NCBI GenBank assembly: GCA_012729815.1
Contig: JAAYCJ010000179.1
Span: forward strand, 1 to 42,064
Direction: 5' to 3'
DNA: 42,064 nt
From: Phycisphaerae bacterium
Lineage (GTDB): Bacteria; Planctomycetota; Phycisphaerae; JAAYCJ01
Positions 11,676-39,763 of this stretch are shown one piece after another. The notes beneath the pieces are model-generated. The model was not told the origin of the DNA and did not search any database. It worked only from the letters and a program-made list of their open reading frames with translations. The position numbers were made by a program, and so were the translations under genes. Positions within the stretch are counted from its first letter, which is position 1. The number at the start of each line of letters is the position of its first letter.

Positions 11676-12563
11676 TCAAGGGCCGTCGCCTGTCGGCAGC
11701 GACTCGGCGTGGTTGTCGATGTCCTTCCACGGATCGCCCTGGCGGCCAAGGCGCTGGAGGACATTACTGATGTTGTACCCGTCCGGGCGAAGGTCGCTGC
11801 GGTCCACCTCCGACCACTCCAGCGGCACAGCCACTGGCGCTCCGGGCCTGGCCCGCACCGAATACGGGGCCACCGCGGTCTGGCCATAGGCGTTGCGGTT
11901 GGTGTCGATAAACACCCGATCGCCCCGTTTGGCGATCCGCTGTTCGGTCGTGAATTTCTTCTCGTCCTGCGTCGCCAGCACGCCGGCCACCTGCTGGGCG
12001 AACGCCCGCACCTGGTCGAACGTCTTGCCGCGTTTGATCGGACAGACCACATGCATGCCCTTCGACCCGGTGGCCATGGCGTAGGCCTTCAGGCCCGCCG
12101 CCTCCAGGATCTCACGCAGCCGCTTGGCCCCGGCGCGCACGTCGTCGAATCCGCCGTTTGGCGGGTCCAGATCGAAGATCAACCGGTCGGGCTTTTCGAT
12201 CTTGTCCCGGCGGGACAGCCAGATGTGAATGGCGATGCAGGCCTGATTGGCCAGGTAGGCCAGGTCGGCCGTCTTGCCGATCACCACGTGGTTGACCGTG
12301 CCGTTTTCCTTATCGACCCGCTGGGTGGCGATCCAGCCGGGAAAGTACCTCGGCGCGTTCTTGTTGAAGAAGCTCTTGCCCTCGATGCCGTCGGGAAAGC
12401 GATGCATGACGATGGGCCGGTTCGCGACATGCGGCAGCATCATCTCGGCGATCCTGCGGTAGTATTCGATAAGGTCCTTCTTGGCGTAGCCGGCCCCTGG
12501 AAAAAAGACCTTGTCCTCCTTCGAGGTCTTGATCGTCTGTCCGTCGACTTCGATGCGGCCCAT
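11676..12563 (-). CDS. LigD polymerase (LigPol) domain, stand-alone archaeo-eukaryotic primase-type enzyme
   Basis: 295 residues from ATG 12563. The whole protein is the polymerase/primase module of bacterial NHEJ LigD: the DKVFFPG start, HRFPDGI, IFDLDPP (the two catalytic Asp residues), SKGMHVV and the late metal-ligand segment FIDTNRN. No ligase or phosphoesterase domain is fused. The family extends DNA or RNA ends, with a preference for ribonucleotides, during end joining. A separate LigD phosphoesterase gene lies 63 bases upstream on the same strand, giving a split LigD. No Ku or ATP-dependent ligase gene is in the window. Confidence 0.93.
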   Translation of the reverse strand: MGRIEVDGQTIKTSKEDKVFFPGAGYAKKDLIEYYRRIAEMMLPHVANRPIVMHRFPDGIEGKSFFNKNAPRYFPGWIATQRVDKENGTVNHVVIGKTADLAYLANQACIAIHIWLSRRDKIEKPDRLIFDLDPPNGGFDDVRAGAKRLREILEAAGLKAYAMATGSKGMHVVCPIKRGKTFDQVRAFAQQVAGVLATQDEKKFTTEQRIAKRGDRVFIDTNRNAYGQTAVAPYSVRARPGAPVAVPLEWSEVDRSDLRPDGYNISNVLQRLGRQGDPWKDIDNHAESLPTGDGP

Positions 12564-12626
12564 GACTCCCCGCTTCCTTGGGTTGCTCTCTGGTGTGGTC
12601 GCTGAGGCGGTCGATCGGCTTGGCCG

Positions 12627-13244
12627 TTACTGACCCTTCTTGCCGCCCTCCTGCTCGGCGACTTGTTCAATCGTGCGGCCGCTCAGGACTGATGCGGGTT
12701 CGGTGCTCACCGGATTGCGCCGGGCGTCGGCGTGGTCGTCCTTCTTTTTGATCAACAGCCACTGGGGCTTATCGCCCTGCCTGCGTTTGGTCCTGACCAG
12801 CACGTAACAGCCCCTGAGCTTTTGGCCCTCCAGCCACACCTCGACCTGCCCGCCTTCACAGGCATCTTCCATCGGTATCTCGTTGCCCTCGTCGTCCTTG
12901 CGGAGGTTGCGGTACGGCCCGATGTCCCAGACCAGCACCGTGCCGCCGCCGTACTGCCCTTCCGGGATCACCCCCTCAAAGTCCGCGTAGTCCAGCGGGT
13001 GGTCCTCGGTCGGCACGGCCAGGCGCTTTTCCGACGGGTCGGTCGACGGCCCTTTCGGCACCGCCCACGACTTGAGCACGCCGTCGACCTCCAGGCGGAA
13101 ATCGTAGTGCAAGCGGCTGGCGTCGTGCTTCTGGACCACGAATACCGGCGGTTGGCCTTCTTTGGCCTCGCCGCCCTCCGGCTCGGCGGTCCGGGCGAAG
13201 TCGCGTTTTTCACGGTACTCCTTGAGGGGGTCTTTTTCCGGCAT
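12627..13244 (-). CDS. LigD 3'-phosphoesterase domain, stand-alone
   Basis: 205 residues from ATG 13244, with GGAGCGGAAG upstream. The phosphoesterase module of LigD is complete: FVVQKHDASRLHYDFRLE, carrying metal-binding His and Asp residues; WAVPKGPS; and DYADFEGVIPEGQYGGGTV. The enzyme removes 3'-terminal ribonucleotides and phosphates to leave a 3'-OH before ligation. The roughly 45-residue C-terminal tail after LLIKKKDDHA is low in complexity. It lies between the aldo/keto reductase (18 bases) and the polymerase gene (63 bases), probably in one transcript. Confidence 0.94.
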   Translation of the reverse strand: MPEKDPLKEYREKRDFARTAEPEGGEAKEGQPPVFVVQKHDASRLHYDFRLEVDGVLKSWAVPKGPSTDPSEKRLAVPTEDHPLDYADFEGVIPEGQYGGGTVLVWDIGPYRNLRKDDEGNEIPMEDACEGGQVEVWLEGQKLRGCYVLVRTKRRQGDKPQWLLIKKKDDHADARRNPVSTEPASVLSGRTIEQVAEQEGGKKGQ

Positions 13245-33308: not shown

Positions 33309-34562
33309 TCAGATACTCGGACGTTGTCGCTTAACGTCCCGGGCCTGCCGAAACGCCTCCATCGCGGCTGGGAACGGAGCCAGAGCCCGCTCAAAAATCC
33401 CCAGCGAGTACGCGATCGTCACCCCGTAGTTGGTGATCGATACGCCCTGCTTGCGGCAGCGAAGGATCCGCGAGAGCATCTCGCGGCGGTTCCACATGCA
33501 CGCCCCGCAGTGGACGATCAACTTGAACGGCGTCACGTCATCGGGAAAATCATGGCCCTGCGTCGTGACGAACTCCAGCTTGCCGCCGACGTACTGCGTG
33601 AGCCAGCGAGGGATCTTCACCCGCCCGATGTCCTCGCCGATCGGATGGTGCGTGCACGCCTCGCCGATCAGCACGCGATCGCCCGGCCGCAGATCCTCGA
33701 TCGCCAGAGCTCCTCGCACGAACTCGTTCAAATCGCCCTTGAACCGGGCGAACAGGATCGAAAACGAGGTCATCGGCACCTCGGGCGGCGTATCGCCCGC
33801 CACCTTCAAAAACGCCTGCGAATCGGTAATCACCAGAGCCGGCGGCCGCTTGAGCCGCTCCAACGCGTCCCTCAGCTCGCGCTCTTTGACCACCATGCAG
33901 TACGCGTCGTTATCGAGCAGATCGCGGATCGACTGGACCTGCGGCAAGATCAGCCGCCCCTTCGGCGCCTCCAGGTCGATCGGCACCACCAGCACCGCCA
34001 GCTCGCCCGCCGGCACCAGGTCGCCTACGATCGACGGCGGATTGATAAAGTCCTCCGGAGCCGAACGGACGAGCGCCTCGCGCAGCTCAAAAATGCCCTC
34101 GCCGCGCGACGCCACCGCGGTCAGATGGCGGATCTTGCGTTCGTCGAGCTGCCGCACCACCTCCGGCCGCGGCGAGGCCAGGTCTGCCTTGTTGAATACC
34201 ACCACCACCGGCGCCTCGCGCCGGATCAGCTCGTCGACCACCGCGTCCTCGAACGGCCCCCAGTGCCCCGCCTCGACCACGACCACCCCGATGTCCGTCC
34301 GATCGAAGATCTGCCGCGTCCGCTCGACCCGCTTTTCGCCTAATGCCCCCACGTCGTCGATACCCGCGGTGTCGATGAACAGCACCGGCCCCAGCGGCAG
34401 AAGCTCCATCGGCTTTTCCACCGGGTCGGTCGTCGTGCCCGCCACGTCCGAAACGATCGAGACCATCTGCCGCGTCATCGCGTTCAGCAGCGACGACTTG
34501 CCGACGTTCCGCCGGCCGAACAGCCCGATGTGCAGTCGAAAACCCTTCGGCGTTGCCTTCAT
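33309..34562 (-). CDS. hydF: [FeFe]-hydrogenase maturation GTPase HydF
   Basis: 417 residues from ATG 34562, overlapping the aspA stop (ATGA). The GTPase domain has the P-loop GRRNVGKSS, switch GTTTDPV, DTAGIDD and NKAD. The C-terminal domain has the HydF 4Fe-4S ligands: Cys and His in CTHHPIGEDIGRVKIP and the CxxC in HCGACMWNRREML, with the CxHx(46-53)CxxC spacing. HydF is the scaffold that carries the diiron precursor made by HydE and HydG to apo-hydrogenase. Neither hydE, hydG nor a hydrogenase gene is in the window, but this gene implies they exist in the genome. Confidence 0.96.
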   Translation of the reverse strand: MKATPKGFRLHIGLFGRRNVGKSSLLNAMTRQMVSIVSDVAGTTTDPVEKPMELLPLGPVLFIDTAGIDDVGALGEKRVERTRQIFDRTDIGVVVVEAGHWGPFEDAVVDELIRREAPVVVVFNKADLASPRPEVVRQLDERKIRHLTAVASRGEGIFELREALVRSAPEDFINPPSIVGDLVPAGELAVLVVPIDLEAPKGRLILPQVQSIRDLLDNDAYCMVVKERELRDALERLKRPPALVITDSQAFLKVAGDTPPEVPMTSFSILFARFKGDLNEFVRGALAIEDLRPGDRVLIGEACTHHPIGEDIGRVKIPRWLTQYVGGKLEFVTTQGHDFPDDVTPFKLIVHCGACMWNRREMLSRILRCRKQGVSITNYGVTIAYSLGIFERALAPFPAAMEAFRQARDVKRQRPSI

Positions 34563-35974
34563 GGCTCTTCCCGTTTCCTCATCACCGATCCCAGCCGTGT
34601 CACGTGCTCCGGCGAGACCAGTTCGTCAAATTCCTGTTCGCTCAGAACCCCGCGCTCCACCGCCACCTCCCGAATCCCGCGATTCTCCCGCCGGGCGGTC
34701 TGGGCCACGCTCTGGGCCACTTCGTAGCCGATCCGCTCGACCAGCGCGGTCACCGCCGCCGTCGAATTCTCGACGCTCCGCCGGCACCGCTGCTCATCCG
34801 CGGCAATCCCCTCGACGCAAAGCCGTCGGAAAATTATAGAGGCGTTGGCCAACAAATCCAGACTGCCCAGCAGCGCCTCGGCGATCAGCGGCACGAACGC
34901 ATTGAGCTCCAGGTGCCCCATCGACGAAGCGAGGGCGATGATCTGGTCGTTGGCCATCGTCACCATCGCCGCCTGCGAGACCGCCTCCGGGATCACCGGG
35001 TTGACCTTGCCCGGCATGATCGACGAACCGGCCTGCCGCGCGGGCAGCGCGATCTCGCCGATCCCCGCGTCCGGCCCGGACGAGAGAAACCGCAAATCCG
35101 TCGCCACCTTCAGCAGGTTCGTCGCCATCGCCTTGAGAATCCCGCTGACCTCGACGAACGCATCGGTGTTCTGCGTGGCCTCAACCAGATTCTCAGCCCG
35201 GGCCAGACCCAGCCCGGTGATCTCGCGCAGGTGCTCGGTCGATCGGAAGATGAACTGCCGCGGGGCCGCCAGGCCCGTGCCGATCGCCGTGCCGCCCAGG
35301 TTCACCACCCGAAGCCGCTCCTCGCACTTGTAGATCCGCCATCGGTCCCGACCGAACGCCTCCGCGTACGCTCCCATCTCGCGGCCCAGCGTGGTCAGCA
35401 CCGCGTCCTGGTACTGCGTCCGCCCGACCTTCACCACGTGGCCTAATTCCTTCTCCTTGGCTTGGAACGCCTCGAGCAGACCGACCACCTCGCGCTCCAG
35501 GTTCCGCAGGCTCTTGATCGCCGCCACCTTCAACGCGGTCGGATACGTGTCGTTGGTCGACTGGTGAAGGTTCACGTGGTCCAGCGGCGAGATCGTCGCG
35601 TAGTCGCCCAGCGGCTTGCCGAGAATCCGCAGCGCCCGGTTCGCCACCACCTCGTTGACGTTCATGTTCGTCGACGTGCCCGCTCCGCCCTGCAGCGCGT
35701 CGACCACCACGTGCGCGTCAAGCGTTCCCTCAGCCATCTCGGCGCACGCCTGCTCGATCGCGGCCGCCCGCGCGTCGTCGATAAACCCCAACTCGCGGTT
35801 GGTCCGAACGCACGCCAGCTTCACCGCCCCGTACGCCCGCACCAGCCCCCGGTTCACCGCCCGGCCGGTCAGCGGGAAATTCTCCAGCGCCCGCACCGTG
35901 TACACGCCGTACAGCACGTCGGCCGGCACATCCACCTCGCCCAGAAGGTCTTCTTCGCGTCGGTATTGGGACAT
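34559..35974 (-). CDS. aspA: Aspartate ammonia-lyase
   Basis: 471 residues. ATG 35974 (MSQYRREEDLLGEVDVPADV) matches the family N-terminus; the frame is open to 36064, but those codons are not family-like. The superfamily signature GSSIMPGKVNPV is intact. HQSTNDTYPTALKVAA, TLDAHVVVDALQGGAGTSTN and KVGRTQYQDAV distinguish aspartase/fumarase C from other lyases; YQDAVLTTLG favours aspartase. It converts aspartate to fumarate and ammonium. Coupling to hydF repeats a neighbourhood known in other [FeFe]-hydrogenase organisms, where aspA lies among hydE, hydF and hydG; the reason is not established here. Confidence 0.93.
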   Translation of the reverse strand: MSQYRREEDLLGEVDVPADVLYGVYTVRALENFPLTGRAVNRGLVRAYGAVKLACVRTNRELGFIDDARAAAIEQACAEMAEGTLDAHVVVDALQGGAGTSTNMNVNEVVANRALRILGKPLGDYATISPLDHVNLHQSTNDTYPTALKVAAIKSLRNLEREVVGLLEAFQAKEKELGHVVKVGRTQYQDAVLTTLGREMGAYAEAFGRDRWRIYKCEERLRVVNLGGTAIGTGLAAPRQFIFRSTEHLREITGLGLARAENLVEATQNTDAFVEVSGILKAMATNLLKVATDLRFLSSGPDAGIGEIALPARQAGSSIMPGKVNPVIPEAVSQAAMVTMANDQIIALASSMGHLELNAFVPLIAEALLGSLDLLANASIIFRRLCVEGIAADEQRCRRSVENSTAAVTALVERIGYEVAQSVAQTARRENRGIREVAVERGVLSEQEFDELVSPEHVTRLGSVMRKREEP

Positions 35975-36037
35975 GCGGAGATTGTAGCCGCCGCCACCCG
36001 CGGTTATCAATGGTTCGTTGCCCCCATCCCGATGCGC

Positions 36038-36072
36038 AAAAAAGGCCCGCCGACGTGCTGGCATCGGCGGGC
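36038..36072 (-). terminator. Intrinsic terminator of the orphan transcript
   Basis: On the minus strand GCCCGCCGA (36072-36064) pairs perfectly with TCGGCGGGC (36053-36045) across a 10-base loop, followed by GCC and then six T (36043-36038). There is no T run on the other side, so it works on the minus strand only. Confidence 0.75.
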
Positions 36073-36343: not shown

Positions 36344-37123
36344 TCAATCGGCCCGGCGCTTGCCGCGGCAGACCGCCTCCGAGTCGATCCGCTTGGCCGC
36401 CAGATACTTTTCCACCGCCTGCCGTTTGGCTTCGTCGATGATGCGAACCATCTGGCGTTCGCACTTGTAGCTCTCGAACGAAACGCTGCCTTCGACGGCC
36501 GCCGTCACGTCCACCCCGCGCGGCACGCAGATCTCACCGACCTCGACGTACCCGGCTGACAGGTAAGTCCGGTAACCCGCCTCGTTGCCAAACGCCGTGG
36601 TCAACTCGATCGCGGCCGCTCCGAGACTCGCCGCGGCGCAATCCAACAGCCGCATGATCAGCCGGCCCAACCCTCGCCCGTGCCAACCGTCGGCGATCGC
36701 GATCCCTAGCTCCGGTACTTGGACCCCGTGACCCGCCGACTGTGCGTTGCCGCCCGCCTTCCACAAAAAGAAGTGCGCGATCGGCTCGTCCTCGCACAGC
36801 ATCAGGTACGACGCATCGACCCGATCGACCGCGTTGCGGATCGTCTGACCCAGCGCCTCGGGCAGTCGGACCGCATCGTCCCACGGATACGGGCCGAACA
36901 GCTCCCTGGACTCATCGCCGAGGTTCTGCCCGAACTTCAGCAGCAGCGGCACGTCGCCCGTCCGCAGATTCCGCAGCCGCAGCCAGTCGCGGCCGGCGAA
37001 CGTGAACGAGACGTCAACGCTCCAGGCGTCGCCGGCTTCGATCTTCAACTCCGTGATCCCGCGTCCGGCCTTGCGCCGGGCAAACTCCTCAAGCTCCTGA
37101 CGAATGCTCAAAGCCAAGTCCAT
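36344..37123 (-). CDS. GNAT-family N-acetyltransferase
   Basis: 259 residues. ATG 37123 has GGAAGGGAC upstream; an ATG six codons earlier does not. The acetyl-CoA-binding loop is GIAIADGWHGRGLGRLIMRLL (residues about 162-182), with the fourth strand/helix pair IELTTAFGNEAGYRTYLSAGYVEV after it. The first 45 residues precede the usual GNAT start and may form a small extra domain. The substrate is unknown. It is the last gene before the orphan RNA promoter. Confidence 0.85.
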   Translation of the reverse strand: MDLALSIRQELEEFARRKAGRGITELKIEAGDAWSVDVSFTFAGRDWLRLRNLRTGDVPLLLKFGQNLGDESRELFGPYPWDDAVRLPEALGQTIRNAVDRVDASYLMLCEDEPIAHFFLWKAGGNAQSAGHGVQVPELGIAIADGWHGRGLGRLIMRLLDCAAASLGAAAIELTTAFGNEAGYRTYLSAGYVEVGEICVPRGVDVTAAVEGSVSFESYKCERQMVRIIDEAKRQAVEKYLAAKRIDSEAVCRGKRRAD

Positions 37124-37303
37124 CAACCGTCCCTTCCACAAGCAACCCGATTACACCAGTGCCGACCCCAACTCCCGCCGCCGCTGCCCGGCGGCGGTCA
37201 TTGTAACACATGCCCGCTCGAAGATGTAGGTCCGTTCGCGTGGCCGTGGCCGCCGATCGGCCCTTGACAATCCAGCCGCCTCCCATAACCATACAGGTAT
37301 GAT

Positions 37304-37319
37304 CCCGCGACAACGCGGG
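37304..37319 (+). other. Small perfect hairpin in the leader of the CysRS-like gene
   Basis: CCCGCG-ACAA-CGCGGG, a 6-bp GC stem with a four-base loop, ends 31 bases before the start codon. Upstream is TTGACA (37264-37269), but no good -10 follows at 16-18 bases; TATGAT (37298-37303) is 28 bases away. It might be a leader structure or a binding site; no function is evident. Confidence 0.35.
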
Positions 37320-37350
37320 TGCGTTACTGACCGTTTTGAGGGGGTTCGCC

Positions 37351-38625
37351 GTGAATGGCCGCTCCGGTATCGCCGCTGAGTTCTGCCTGACCAACACGCT
37401 GACCCGGCGCAAGGAACGGTTCGTCCCGCGCGAGCCGGGCCGCGTCACGATGTTCACCTGCGGCCCGTCGGTCTACCGCCGCCAGCACGTGGGCAATTAC
37501 CGCACCTTTCTCTACGAAGACGTGCTGTACCGCTATCTGGAGTTCCTCGGCTACAAGGTCCACCGCCTGATCAACTTCACCGACGTCGAGGACAAAGCCA
37601 TCGAGGAGGCCCGCGAGCAGGGCCTCGAACTGGACCAGTTGACCCGCCCGGTCGTCGAGCAGTTCCTCGACACCGCCGACAAGCTGCGGATCCGCCTGCC
37701 GCGGGTCATCTCGCGCTCCTCGACCAGCGTGGACACCGCCGCCGAGATCATCCGCGCGCTGATCGATCGAGGCCACGCCTACCGCCACGAGGGCGACGTC
37801 TACTTCGATCCGCTGACGTATCCCGGTTTCGGTCGGCTCTACGGTCTGGACATGAGCCAGTGGCCCAAAGAGCGCATCCGCTTCGACCAGGACACCTATC
37901 CCGGCGATCAGTGGAACCTCGGCGACTTTATCCTCTGGCACGCCTGCGGCTCGAACGACAGTGTCTGCTGGGACACGCCGCTGGGCCGCGGCCGGCCCTC
38001 GTGGAACGTCCAGGACCCAGCCATGATCGTCAAACACCTCGGGCTTCAGATCGATATTCACGGCGGCGCGGTCGATAACCTGTTTCGCCATCACGACTAC
38101 ATCCTGGCCATCATGGAGAGCTACTCACAGCGGAAGTACGCCAACTTCTGGCTGCACGGCGAGCTGCTGCTGGTCGACGGCGAGAAGATGTCCAAGAGCG
38201 AGGGCAACGTCCTCTACGCTGAGGACTTTTTCGACCAGGGCTACTCGCCCGAGGCCGTCCGATTCCACTTCATCAACGGCCACTACCGCCAGCCCATCGA
38301 CTTCCGCCGCCAGCGACTCGACGATACGGTCGGGCGACTCGACCGGCTCACCGCCGCCACCAGACAGCTCTGCCGCGCCGCCGAGGAAGCGTCAGCGCCC
38401 GACACCCTCAACGCACCGGAGGCGGTCGAACTGCTCGCCGCTTTTGCCGCGCACATGAACGACGACCTTCACGTCGCCGACGCCGTCGACGCCCTCGAAC
38501 AAACGCTGCTTCGCCTCGCCGACAGCGAGAAACAAACCCAACTCGACCCGTCAACCTGCGCCCAGTGCACCGCCGCCCTCAACCGGATCGACAGCGTCCT
38601 TCAGGTCGGCCTGCTCTCTGCGTAG
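37351..38625 (+). CDS. Cysteinyl-tRNA synthetase-like protein lacking two zinc ligands and the C-terminal domain
   Basis: 424 residues from GTG 37351, with GAGGGGG upstream. It is a class I synthetase core closely related to CysRS: NTLTRRKERFVPREPGRV, the first zinc ligand in TCGPSVY (Cys37), HVGN in place of HIGH (46-49), NFTDVEDKAIEEA, and intact KMSKS (279-283). The zinc site that selects cysteine is broken: the WHIECS segment reads WNVQDP, so the second Cys is Asp222. The FPHHENE segment reads FRHHDYI, which keeps His247 but replaces the last Glu by Ile251. The C-terminal anticodon-binding part (about 40-70 residues, normally ending near the LEDTPxGTxWR block) is missing. It could be a paralogue with a different substrate, as MshC is for mycothiol, or a degenerate copy. 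The TAG stop lies within a repeat element. Confidence 0.85.
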   Translation: MNGRSGIAAEFCLTNTLTRRKERFVPREPGRVTMFTCGPSVYRRQHVGNYRTFLYEDVLYRYLEFLGYKVHRLINFTDVEDKAIEEAREQGLELDQLTRPVVEQFLDTADKLRIRLPRVISRSSTSVDTAAEIIRALIDRGHAYRHEGDVYFDPLTYPGFGRLYGLDMSQWPKERIRFDQDTYPGDQWNLGDFILWHACGSNDSVCWDTPLGRGRPSWNVQDPAMIVKHLGLQIDIHGGAVDNLFRHHDYILAIMESYSQRKYANFWLHGELLLVDGEKMSKSEGNVLYAEDFFDQGYSPEAVRFHFINGHYRQPIDFRRQRLDDTVGRLDRLTAATRQLCRAAEEASAPDTLNAPEAVELLAAFAAHMNDDLHVADAVDALEQTLLRLADSEKQTQLDPSTCAQCTAALNRIDSVLQVGLLSA

Positions 38626-38677: not shown

Positions 38678-39763
38678 TCACACGATTTCCAGCGCGTCCC
38701 GATCCGGCAGCTCCGGGAACCGCGCCGTCGGCAGCGTCTGGTACCAGTACGCCACCGAGGCGATATCGTCCTGAAGCGGCAGATACCGCCCGCCGCTGCG
38801 CCAGCCGAGGGCCTGGATCGTCACCCGCAAATCCCGCTCGAACCGGATCGGGTCCATGATGTGCCAGCGGTAGAGGCCAAACCGCGTCTGCGACGCATAC
38901 AGCCCGTCCGGCCGGATCACCTGCGGCAGACCCGCGTACGGCGTGGTGAATTCGCGATACCCGCCGTTCTCCTTGCCCAGGTCGAAGTTGTACGACCCGC
39001 AGAAGTAGTCCTCGGTGCCCGTCCCGCAGATCGTCGGAAACGCCTGGTCTCCGTCCATGTAGAACTTGATCTCCCCTTCGCCCCACCAGCCGCAGTTGTT
39101 GACGCCCCACGCCATGTACGTCCCCACGTAGTGCCCCCGGCCGCGGACCTCGTCCACGATCGTGTGCACCTGCTTGCAGGGCAGCGGATTGACCCGGCGG
39201 AACTGGGCATGGAAATACGCCGCGTCGTCCGGCACCTCCGTCAGCGCGTAGGTGACCTGGTAGTACAGCGTCAATGCCTCCGGTCCGATATTCGTCACCG
39301 TCATCCGGCAGTGCTTGCGGAACGGCATCTCCCAATAGCAGTTCAACCCGCTGCGGGGATTGACGCATACCGCCAGCGACGAGACCTGGGCGTACTGCTG
39401 CCAACCGCAGGCGAAGAAATCGCCGATCGGGCATTCGACCGAGGGCTGATCCTGACCGTCCCAATAGACCCGCAGGATGCAGAACCGCCACGACCCGCTC
39501 GGGGTCAGCCAGATGTGCTGAATCGCCCCGGACCCTTCGATCTCGGCCATCGTGAACGTCTGGCCGGCTTCAATCCGCACCGACGGCGAGACCTTCCAGC
39601 CCTGCCCCAGATCGCGGGCACAGGCGGCCCCCGTGCCCTCGACCGCCATCCCGGCCTTGCCCTTCTCGCCGGTGAAGTTCTCCGCACTGATCGAACGGGT
39701 TTTGGCCGATGAAAGCCGCGAGAGATTCCCAAGATGCAGACCCAAGCCGTTGAACGACGCCAT
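38678..39763 (-). CDS. DUF2961 / glycoside hydrolase family 172 protein
   Basis: 361 residues from ATG 39763, with AAAGGG 8 bases upstream. It matches DUF2961 throughout: the N-terminal FNGLGLHLGNLSRLSSAKTR, then SAENFTGEKGKAG, IQHIWLT, LRVYWDGQDQPSVECPIGDFF, and the double block GEGEIKFYMDGD and TICGTGTEDYF. Glu229/Glu231 and Glu251 lie where the GH172 catalytic glutamate pair is expected. Characterised members include alpha-D-fructofuranosidases/difructose-anhydride enzymes and D-arabinofuranosidases. There is no signal peptide. It has its own strong promoter (39810-39838) and sits downstream of a pseudopilin and a hydrolase. Confidence 0.92.
   Translation of the reverse strand: MASFNGLGLHLGNLSRLSSAKTRSISAENFTGEKGKAGMAVEGTGAACARDLGQGWKVSPSVRIEAGQTFTMAEIEGSGAIQHIWLTPSGSWRFCILRVYWDGQDQPSVECPIGDFFACGWQQYAQVSSLAVCVNPRSGLNCYWEMPFRKHCRMTVTNIGPEALTLYYQVTYALTEVPDDAAYFHAQFRRVNPLPCKQVHTIVDEVRGRGHYVGTYMAWGVNNCGWWGEGEIKFYMDGDQAFPTICGTGTEDYFCGSYNFDLGKENGGYREFTTPYAGLPQVIRPDGLYASQTRFGLYRWHIMDPIRFERDLRVTIQALGWRSGGRYLPLQDDIASVAYWYQTLPTARFPELPDRDALEIV

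Follow-up and report, generated by a model that had tools for sequence, protein, structure and literature searches.

The window, by which we mean the whole 42,064-nucleotide stretch of Phycisphaerae DNA analysed, contains on its forward strand (37351..38625) a gene for a 424-residue paralog of cysteinyl-tRNA synthetase (CysRS). The protein belongs to a previously unrecognised family, named here the WNQD family, whose roughly 110 relatives in bacteria and archaea form one clade. Judging from the sequences, we consider it likely, with a probability of roughly 0.58, that the WNQD enzymes are tRNA-independent aminoacyl-adenylate ligases resembling the mycothiol ligase MshC, which would act outside general translation and have a metal-type pocket of Cys, Asp and His (C/D/H). 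A clean cross-domain enzyme family is hidden behind the label ‘cysteine--tRNA ligase’. The papers searched on CysRS paralogs gave only MshC and CysRS* and no description of the WNQD family; since the family is set apart from CysRS* by published description and gene context, identity with CysRS* is the likeliest way in which it could turn out to be known already.

The window gene is an intact open reading frame of 424 codons, from a GTG at 37351 to a stop codon ending at 38625. A Shine–Dalgarno-like GAGGGGG is read about 7 nt 5' of the GTG (37337..37343, forward strand), and a perfect 6-bp inverted repeat with a 4-nt loop (CCCGCG-acaa-CGCGGG, 37303..37318), also 5' of the gene, is a possible operator or regulatory site. 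The GC3 of the gene (0.87) is similar to that of its neighbours. The protein matches the Pfam domain tRNA-synt_1e (PF01406, E=1.7e-76) and scores 318.6 bits against the NCBIfam cysS model TIGR00435, slightly below the cut-off of 340. The gene is solitary and flanked by genes of the opposite strand: a divergent upstream neighbour with a weak GNAT match (36344..37141) and a convergent downstream DUF2961 gene (38678..39763), neither with an evident functional tie to it. Elsewhere on the reverse strand of the window, the genes for the [FeFe]-hydrogenase maturase HydF and an aspartate ammonia-lyase-like protein overlap (33309-34562 and 34559-36064) and are probably a single operon, and two adjacent ORFs at 11676-13244 resemble, by eye, separate LigD polymerase-like and 3'-phosphoesterase-like proteins of the end-joining type.

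The gene is a paralog, since the host genome (97% complete) encodes a separate canonical CysRS on contig C1 (501 residues, with WHIECT, HHENE and KMSKS). The second, canonical cysS that the original prediction had proposed to look for is therefore present, and the window gene is not the only cysS of the genome. Concerning the relatives, a scan with one genome per species gave 80 loci with 42-53% identity to the window protein, except for two Bacillota CysRSs (L081, L082). The bacterial hosts are Desulfobacterota, Spirochaetota, Nitrospirota, a Myxococcota MAG and the window genome (Planctomycetota); the archaeal hosts are Methanoperedens, ANME-1, ANME-2, Methanomicrobiales, Thermoplasmata, Bathyarchaeum and Hadarchaeum. 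In two trees the family is monophyletic with 100/100 support and a long branch, and the window copy pairs with a Desulfobacteraceae copy; the nearest clade in both consists of CysRS-like proteins of Methanoperedens without an anticodon domain (L147, L148). Between close family pairs, dN/dS is 0.04-0.29. The family genes are under strong purifying selection, and decay or a frameshift is rejected on this ground and by the open frame.

Both class I signature motifs are found in the window protein by alignment: HVGN, corresponding to HIGH (residues 46-49, 37486..37497), and KMSKS (residues 279-283, 38185..38199), all motifs being on the forward strand. The zinc ligands of E. coli CysRS are Cys28, Cys209, His234 and Glu238. 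Cys28 is kept as Cys37 (codon 37459..37461), which is invariant among the aligned members. The canonical WHIECS is replaced by WNVQDP (residues 218-223, 38002..38019), with D222 in place of Cys209, and the canonical PHHENE by RHHDYI (residues 246-251, 38086..38103), in which H247 preserves His234 and I251 replaces Glu238. All of these motifs lie where the original prediction had read them. The replaced motif is invariant in all 79 relatives fetched first, far above chance expectation. The 79 aligned members have in common C37, N49, R51, E56, W218, N219, Q221, D222, D242, R246, H247, H248, D249 and Y250, the exceptions on the N-terminal side being single sequences, at least one of them truncated. 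When 107 distinct family sequences were compared with 86 canonical CysRSs, five positions had cleanly switched residue (N219 for H, Q221 for E, D222 for C, R246 for P and D249 for E), with conservation of 99-100% in the family vs 86-100% in the canonical set, and G185 was new in the family. The window copy deviates at four near-invariant family positions (G238, A240, L272 and F307), so it may be somewhat atypical.

Based on a survey of the ligand positions, the window protein has Cys/Asp/His/Ile, against the Cys/Cys/His/Glu of CysRS. All 121 WNQD-family sequences surveyed (duplicates counted) have Cys/Asp/His followed by N, T, S, V or I, and 85 canonical CysRS sequences have Cys/Cys/His/Glu; by this comparison of residues, the D222/I251-type state is family-wide and not the lesion of one gene. 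Other combinations also occur. The Methanoperedens sister clade has Cys/Cys/His/V as aligned. The MshC of M. smegmatis, for which our query was identical to the PDB chain across all 412 residues, has WHVECS and HHEYS, so the Glu ligand is missing; MshC is nevertheless a cysteine-using enzyme. Cys/Asp/His/Glu is found in two otherwise canonical, full-length archaeal CysRSs (L127, L205), in which WHIED and HHEAE are present and Asp replaces the Cys209 ligand. In the Thermoplasmata genome of L127 (5.2 Mb), no other canonical CysRS was found, and no SepRS match exceeded the cut-off. The sets C/C/H/E (CysRS), C/C/H/x (MshC and the Methanoperedens sister clade), C/D/H/E (some archaeal CysRSs) and C/D/H/x (WNQD family) are a natural series, which suits tests of how, in the absence of editing, a metal site governs which amino acid is chosen.

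The zinc-based amino-acid selection of CysRS is summarised in PMC7373986, where ThrRS illustrates that three protein ligands plus the substrate are a workable metal design. The description of the window protein as lacking the zinc site was overstated: two ligands are strictly kept, the third is swapped for a potential ligand and MshC does without the fourth, so a lost site is not implied. D222 itself is a possible metal ligand, and given the loss of Glu in MshC and the Cys-to-Asp change in L127, a C/D/H metal site and the use of cysteine are both possible for the family. For the same reasons, to deduce from the ligand changes that another amino acid is activated was too strong. In our judgement, which is not a measurement, the WNQD enzyme probably still binds a metal, and the odds that cysteine is its substrate are slightly below even. 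Alternatively, a different amino acid could be activated outside translation, with D222, N219, R246 and Y250 forming a metal-free side-chain pocket and an undescribed conjugate as the product. The switched residues are indeed invariant, and the fourth ligand position varies freely (N, T, S, V or I), as expected without a metal; however, C37 and H247 are present in every surveyed family sequence, which is hard to explain without a metal site, and MshC uses cysteine without the same Glu. We find this alternative rather doubtful; it overlaps with the MshC-like ligase except in the chemistry of the pocket, and the confidence placed in the two is not exclusive.

Differences are also seen in the length of the proteins. 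After KMSK, the family has a median of 144 residues and canonical CysRS 203, i.e. the family is about 59-60 residues shorter; the C-terminal anticodon-binding domain is missing, and the predicted model stops after the helical bundle. The early stop noticed originally thus does remove the anticodon domain, but about 60 residues are lost, not about 40. The AlphaFold2 model of the window protein has a pLDDT of 92.2 and a pTM of 0.92, and Foldseek places CysRS structures (8qhp, 1li5) first and MshC (8hfn, 3c8z) at E ~1e-29. A family-specific loop (residues 167-192, DMSQWPKERIRFDQDTYPGDQWNLGD, 37849..37926, forward strand) appears to occupy the region of the CysRS ‘lasso’ and of the acceptor side of MshC; in CysRS, this ‘partially disordered lasso’ insertion is assigned to tRNA binding (PMC10810186). 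D167, W171, P172, D181, T182, G185, W188, N189 and G191 are each present in at least 95% of the family and are variable or absent in canonical CysRS, and W171, P172, D181, T182, W188, N189 and G191 are invariants gained only in the family. Taken together, the highly conserved new loop and the missing anticodon domain suggest that the enzyme has a specific acceptor other than tRNA, as MshC does. The loss of two canonical ligands and one domain could also be read as the mark of a catalytically dead or regulatory CysRS remnant, which we regard as very improbable, because neither the two signature motifs nor the residues on the adenylate side vary, and purifying selection is strong.

Concerning the distribution, the family gene is found in 1 of 392 genomes of the window's phylum, where the other matches have canonical-level scores (the best, L085, was checked and is canonical). 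The samples of Spirochaetota, the Methanoperedens phylum, Desulfobacterota and Nitrospirota have it in 13 of 247, 8 of 247, 6 of 247 and 9 of 148 genomes, respectively; all five samples include their centre genomes, themselves carriers. In two surveys of the hosts, 27 of 35 and 25 of 31 genomes have a CysRS over the NCBIfam cut-off. The archaeal hosts without CysRS have a SepRS over the cut-off, except for one, whose SepRS is partial and lies at the edge of a contig; five bacterial MAG hosts (G402, G420, G423, G604 and G645) have no second CysRS, probably as incomplete assemblies. Since the gene is rare and patchy and its hosts can almost always obtain Cys-tRNA by another route, the family looks accessory and horizontally spread. 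No relative was found on viral contigs, and none was recognised among 624 tblastn matches in plasmid records, all below 60% identity; the 40 of these listed (30-36% identity) resemble canonical cysS. In SepRS archaea without a true CysRS (e.g. the hosts of L059 and L061), the WNQD gene would pass for a CysRS, and such mistaken calls would mislead reconstructions of Cys-tRNA synthesis in these archaea.

Further CysRS-like genes were encountered in these genomes. Two Desulfobacterota loci (L144:1414-3744 and L145:1373-3706) encode fusions of cysteine synthase (CysK) with CysRS, of about 776 residues and with intact WHIECA and HHENE. These fusions co-occur with the canonical CysRS and the WNQD paralog, so that some genomes have three CysRS-like genes. 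In another locus (L151:143-4126) the CysK–CysRS fusion gene is split by an inserted opposite-strand ORF resembling an IS110-type transposase, and L150 (G394:C277) encodes a 792-residue CysRS-containing protein with the degenerate ligand positions T/A/H/L.

Neighbour clustering of 115 loci revealed no universal or conserved partner and no conserved biosynthetic gene; most neighbourhoods differ, and a conserved operon is rejected. The only recurrent theme is exporters. Of the 113 family loci, among which some were fetched twice, 30 have an exporter gene at most two genes away, as do both loci of the sister clade. NodJ-like ABC-2 genes are convergent to the family gene in archaea; ABC genes are co-directional with it in one Desulfobacteraceae locus and five spirochaetes; MATE genes are directly 5' of it in Nitrospirota and delta loci, this group being mostly limited to one Nitrospirota/delta clade. 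DrrA/DrrB-like ABC genes are in an operon with the sister protein of Methanoperedens (L147). Allowing for kinship, these adjacencies perhaps amount to about six independent events and could partly be due to chance, so they can be taken only as a hint that the product is exported. Efflux pumps might also accompany a resistance gene, i.e. an inhibitor-resistant or back-up CysRS. The patchy horizontal spread, and the MATE and DrrB/NodJ-like ABC exporters adjoining in about a quarter of the loci, would fit such a role; against it, the loss of the anticodon domain and two ligands makes a functional CysRS unlikely, the family occurs in archaea without any canonical CysRS, and the plasmid matches included no recognised relative. 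We regard a resistance function as very improbable.

For the MshC-like ligase, the following mechanism can be proposed. HVGN and KMSKS would bind ATP, and an α-amino acid, its backbone read by T77, W218 and D242 (all kept), would be activated as the aminoacyl-adenylate. In the pocket, where C37 and H247 are kept, D222 stands for Cys209 and the Glu ligand is dropped, a C/D/H metal, most likely still bound, would offer an open coordination place to the substrate side chain, so that cysteine, or another small side chain carrying S, O or N, could be selected. As in MshC, the aminoacyl group would then pass to a small acceptor instead of elongator tRNA-Cys, and the new invariant loop 167-192, which replaces the tRNA-side loop of CysRS, may form the acceptor site. 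In a minority of hosts a NodJ/DrrB-type ABC or MATE exporter adjoins the gene, a hint that the product may be exported. The original prediction of a role outside translation thus pointed in the right direction, and its analogy with MshC is reasonable, but the chemical step central to it is not secured. A more far-reaching proposal, that the family is a new class of tRNA-independent aminoacyl ligases, derived from an archaeal-type CysRS and making an exported or redox-active amino-acid conjugate, is tentative, and we give it somewhat less than an even chance. If true, the conjugate would be common to ANME/methanogenic archaea, sulfate reducers, spirochaetes and Nitrospirota, and the family would join MshC as a case of the CysRS fold recruited to cell chemistry. 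An MshC-like ligase would point towards a small molecule, not yet described, in ANME archaea, sulfate reducers and spirochaetes.

Compared with known systems, the WNQD family shares with canonical CysRS (TIGR00435/PF01406) the fold, the HIGH and KMSKS motifs, the helical part of the DALR domain, the Cys28 and His234 ligands, TDVEDK and the equivalents of W205 and D229. It differs in having D for C209, N/T/S/V/I for E238, N for H206, Q for E208, R for P233, D for E236 and Y for N237, in the missing anticodon domain and in the rebuilt loop 167-192. CysRS* (Mukai et al. 2017), as described in PMC7609411 and PMC9437257, likewise has no anticodon domain, and its CP domain is mutated; in Desulfobacterales it charges a SelC*-type tRNA-Cys with Cys and is genetically coupled to selC*/selB*. 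As in the WNQD hosts, it is a second, anticodon-domain-less CysRS-like protein beside canonical cysS. By analogy, the WNQD protein could be an alternative CysRS whose product is still Cys-tRNA, made with a particular tRNA or under a particular condition; the C/D/H/E set of L127, the only canonical CysRS found in its genome, indicates that a presumed cysteine enzyme tolerates Asp. Against this, the loop on the tRNA side has been rebuilt, and the window contains no tRNA gene; ordinary unrelated tRNAs were the only ones seen, in 3 of 60 scanned loci, and no SelB-type GTPase motif was found in 115 loci. A tRNA-Sec family scan matched all 241 Desulfobacterota-class genomes and thereby does not distinguish selC*. 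We therefore consider an alternative CysRS unlikely, and CysRS* itself, compared by its published description, is rejected by gene context, as no selC*/selB* coupling is seen near the family genes.

The Methanoperedens sister protein, found in only two genomes (L147:2443-5388 and L148:289-1554), shares with the family CGPSVY, IGN(F/Y)RTF, EDVL, GG(V/I)DN, the missing anticodon domain and an adjoining ABC-2 exporter, but it keeps WHIECS and has HHE(T/S)V, i.e. a C/C/H ligand set. In the phylogeny with CysRS and MshC (TIGR03447; PDB 3c8z, 8hfm) that had been suggested at the outset, the family is a distinct clade (100/100), and the single MshC sequence, whose branch is very long (3.93), is placed among canonical CysRS and away from the family. 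Membership in MshC is rejected by score, the window protein reaching 188.5 bits against a cut-off of 485.1, and by mshA, for which the best matches in the window genome reach 135.7 bits against 462.5 and none of 11 hosts exceeds the cut-off. MshC retains the Cys ligand (WHVECS) and differs in its acceptor-side loops, but both are CysRS paralogs of about 412-424 residues without an anticodon domain, both have lost the Glu ligand, and both have a Tyr after the motif (HHEY in MshC, HHDY in the WNQD family).
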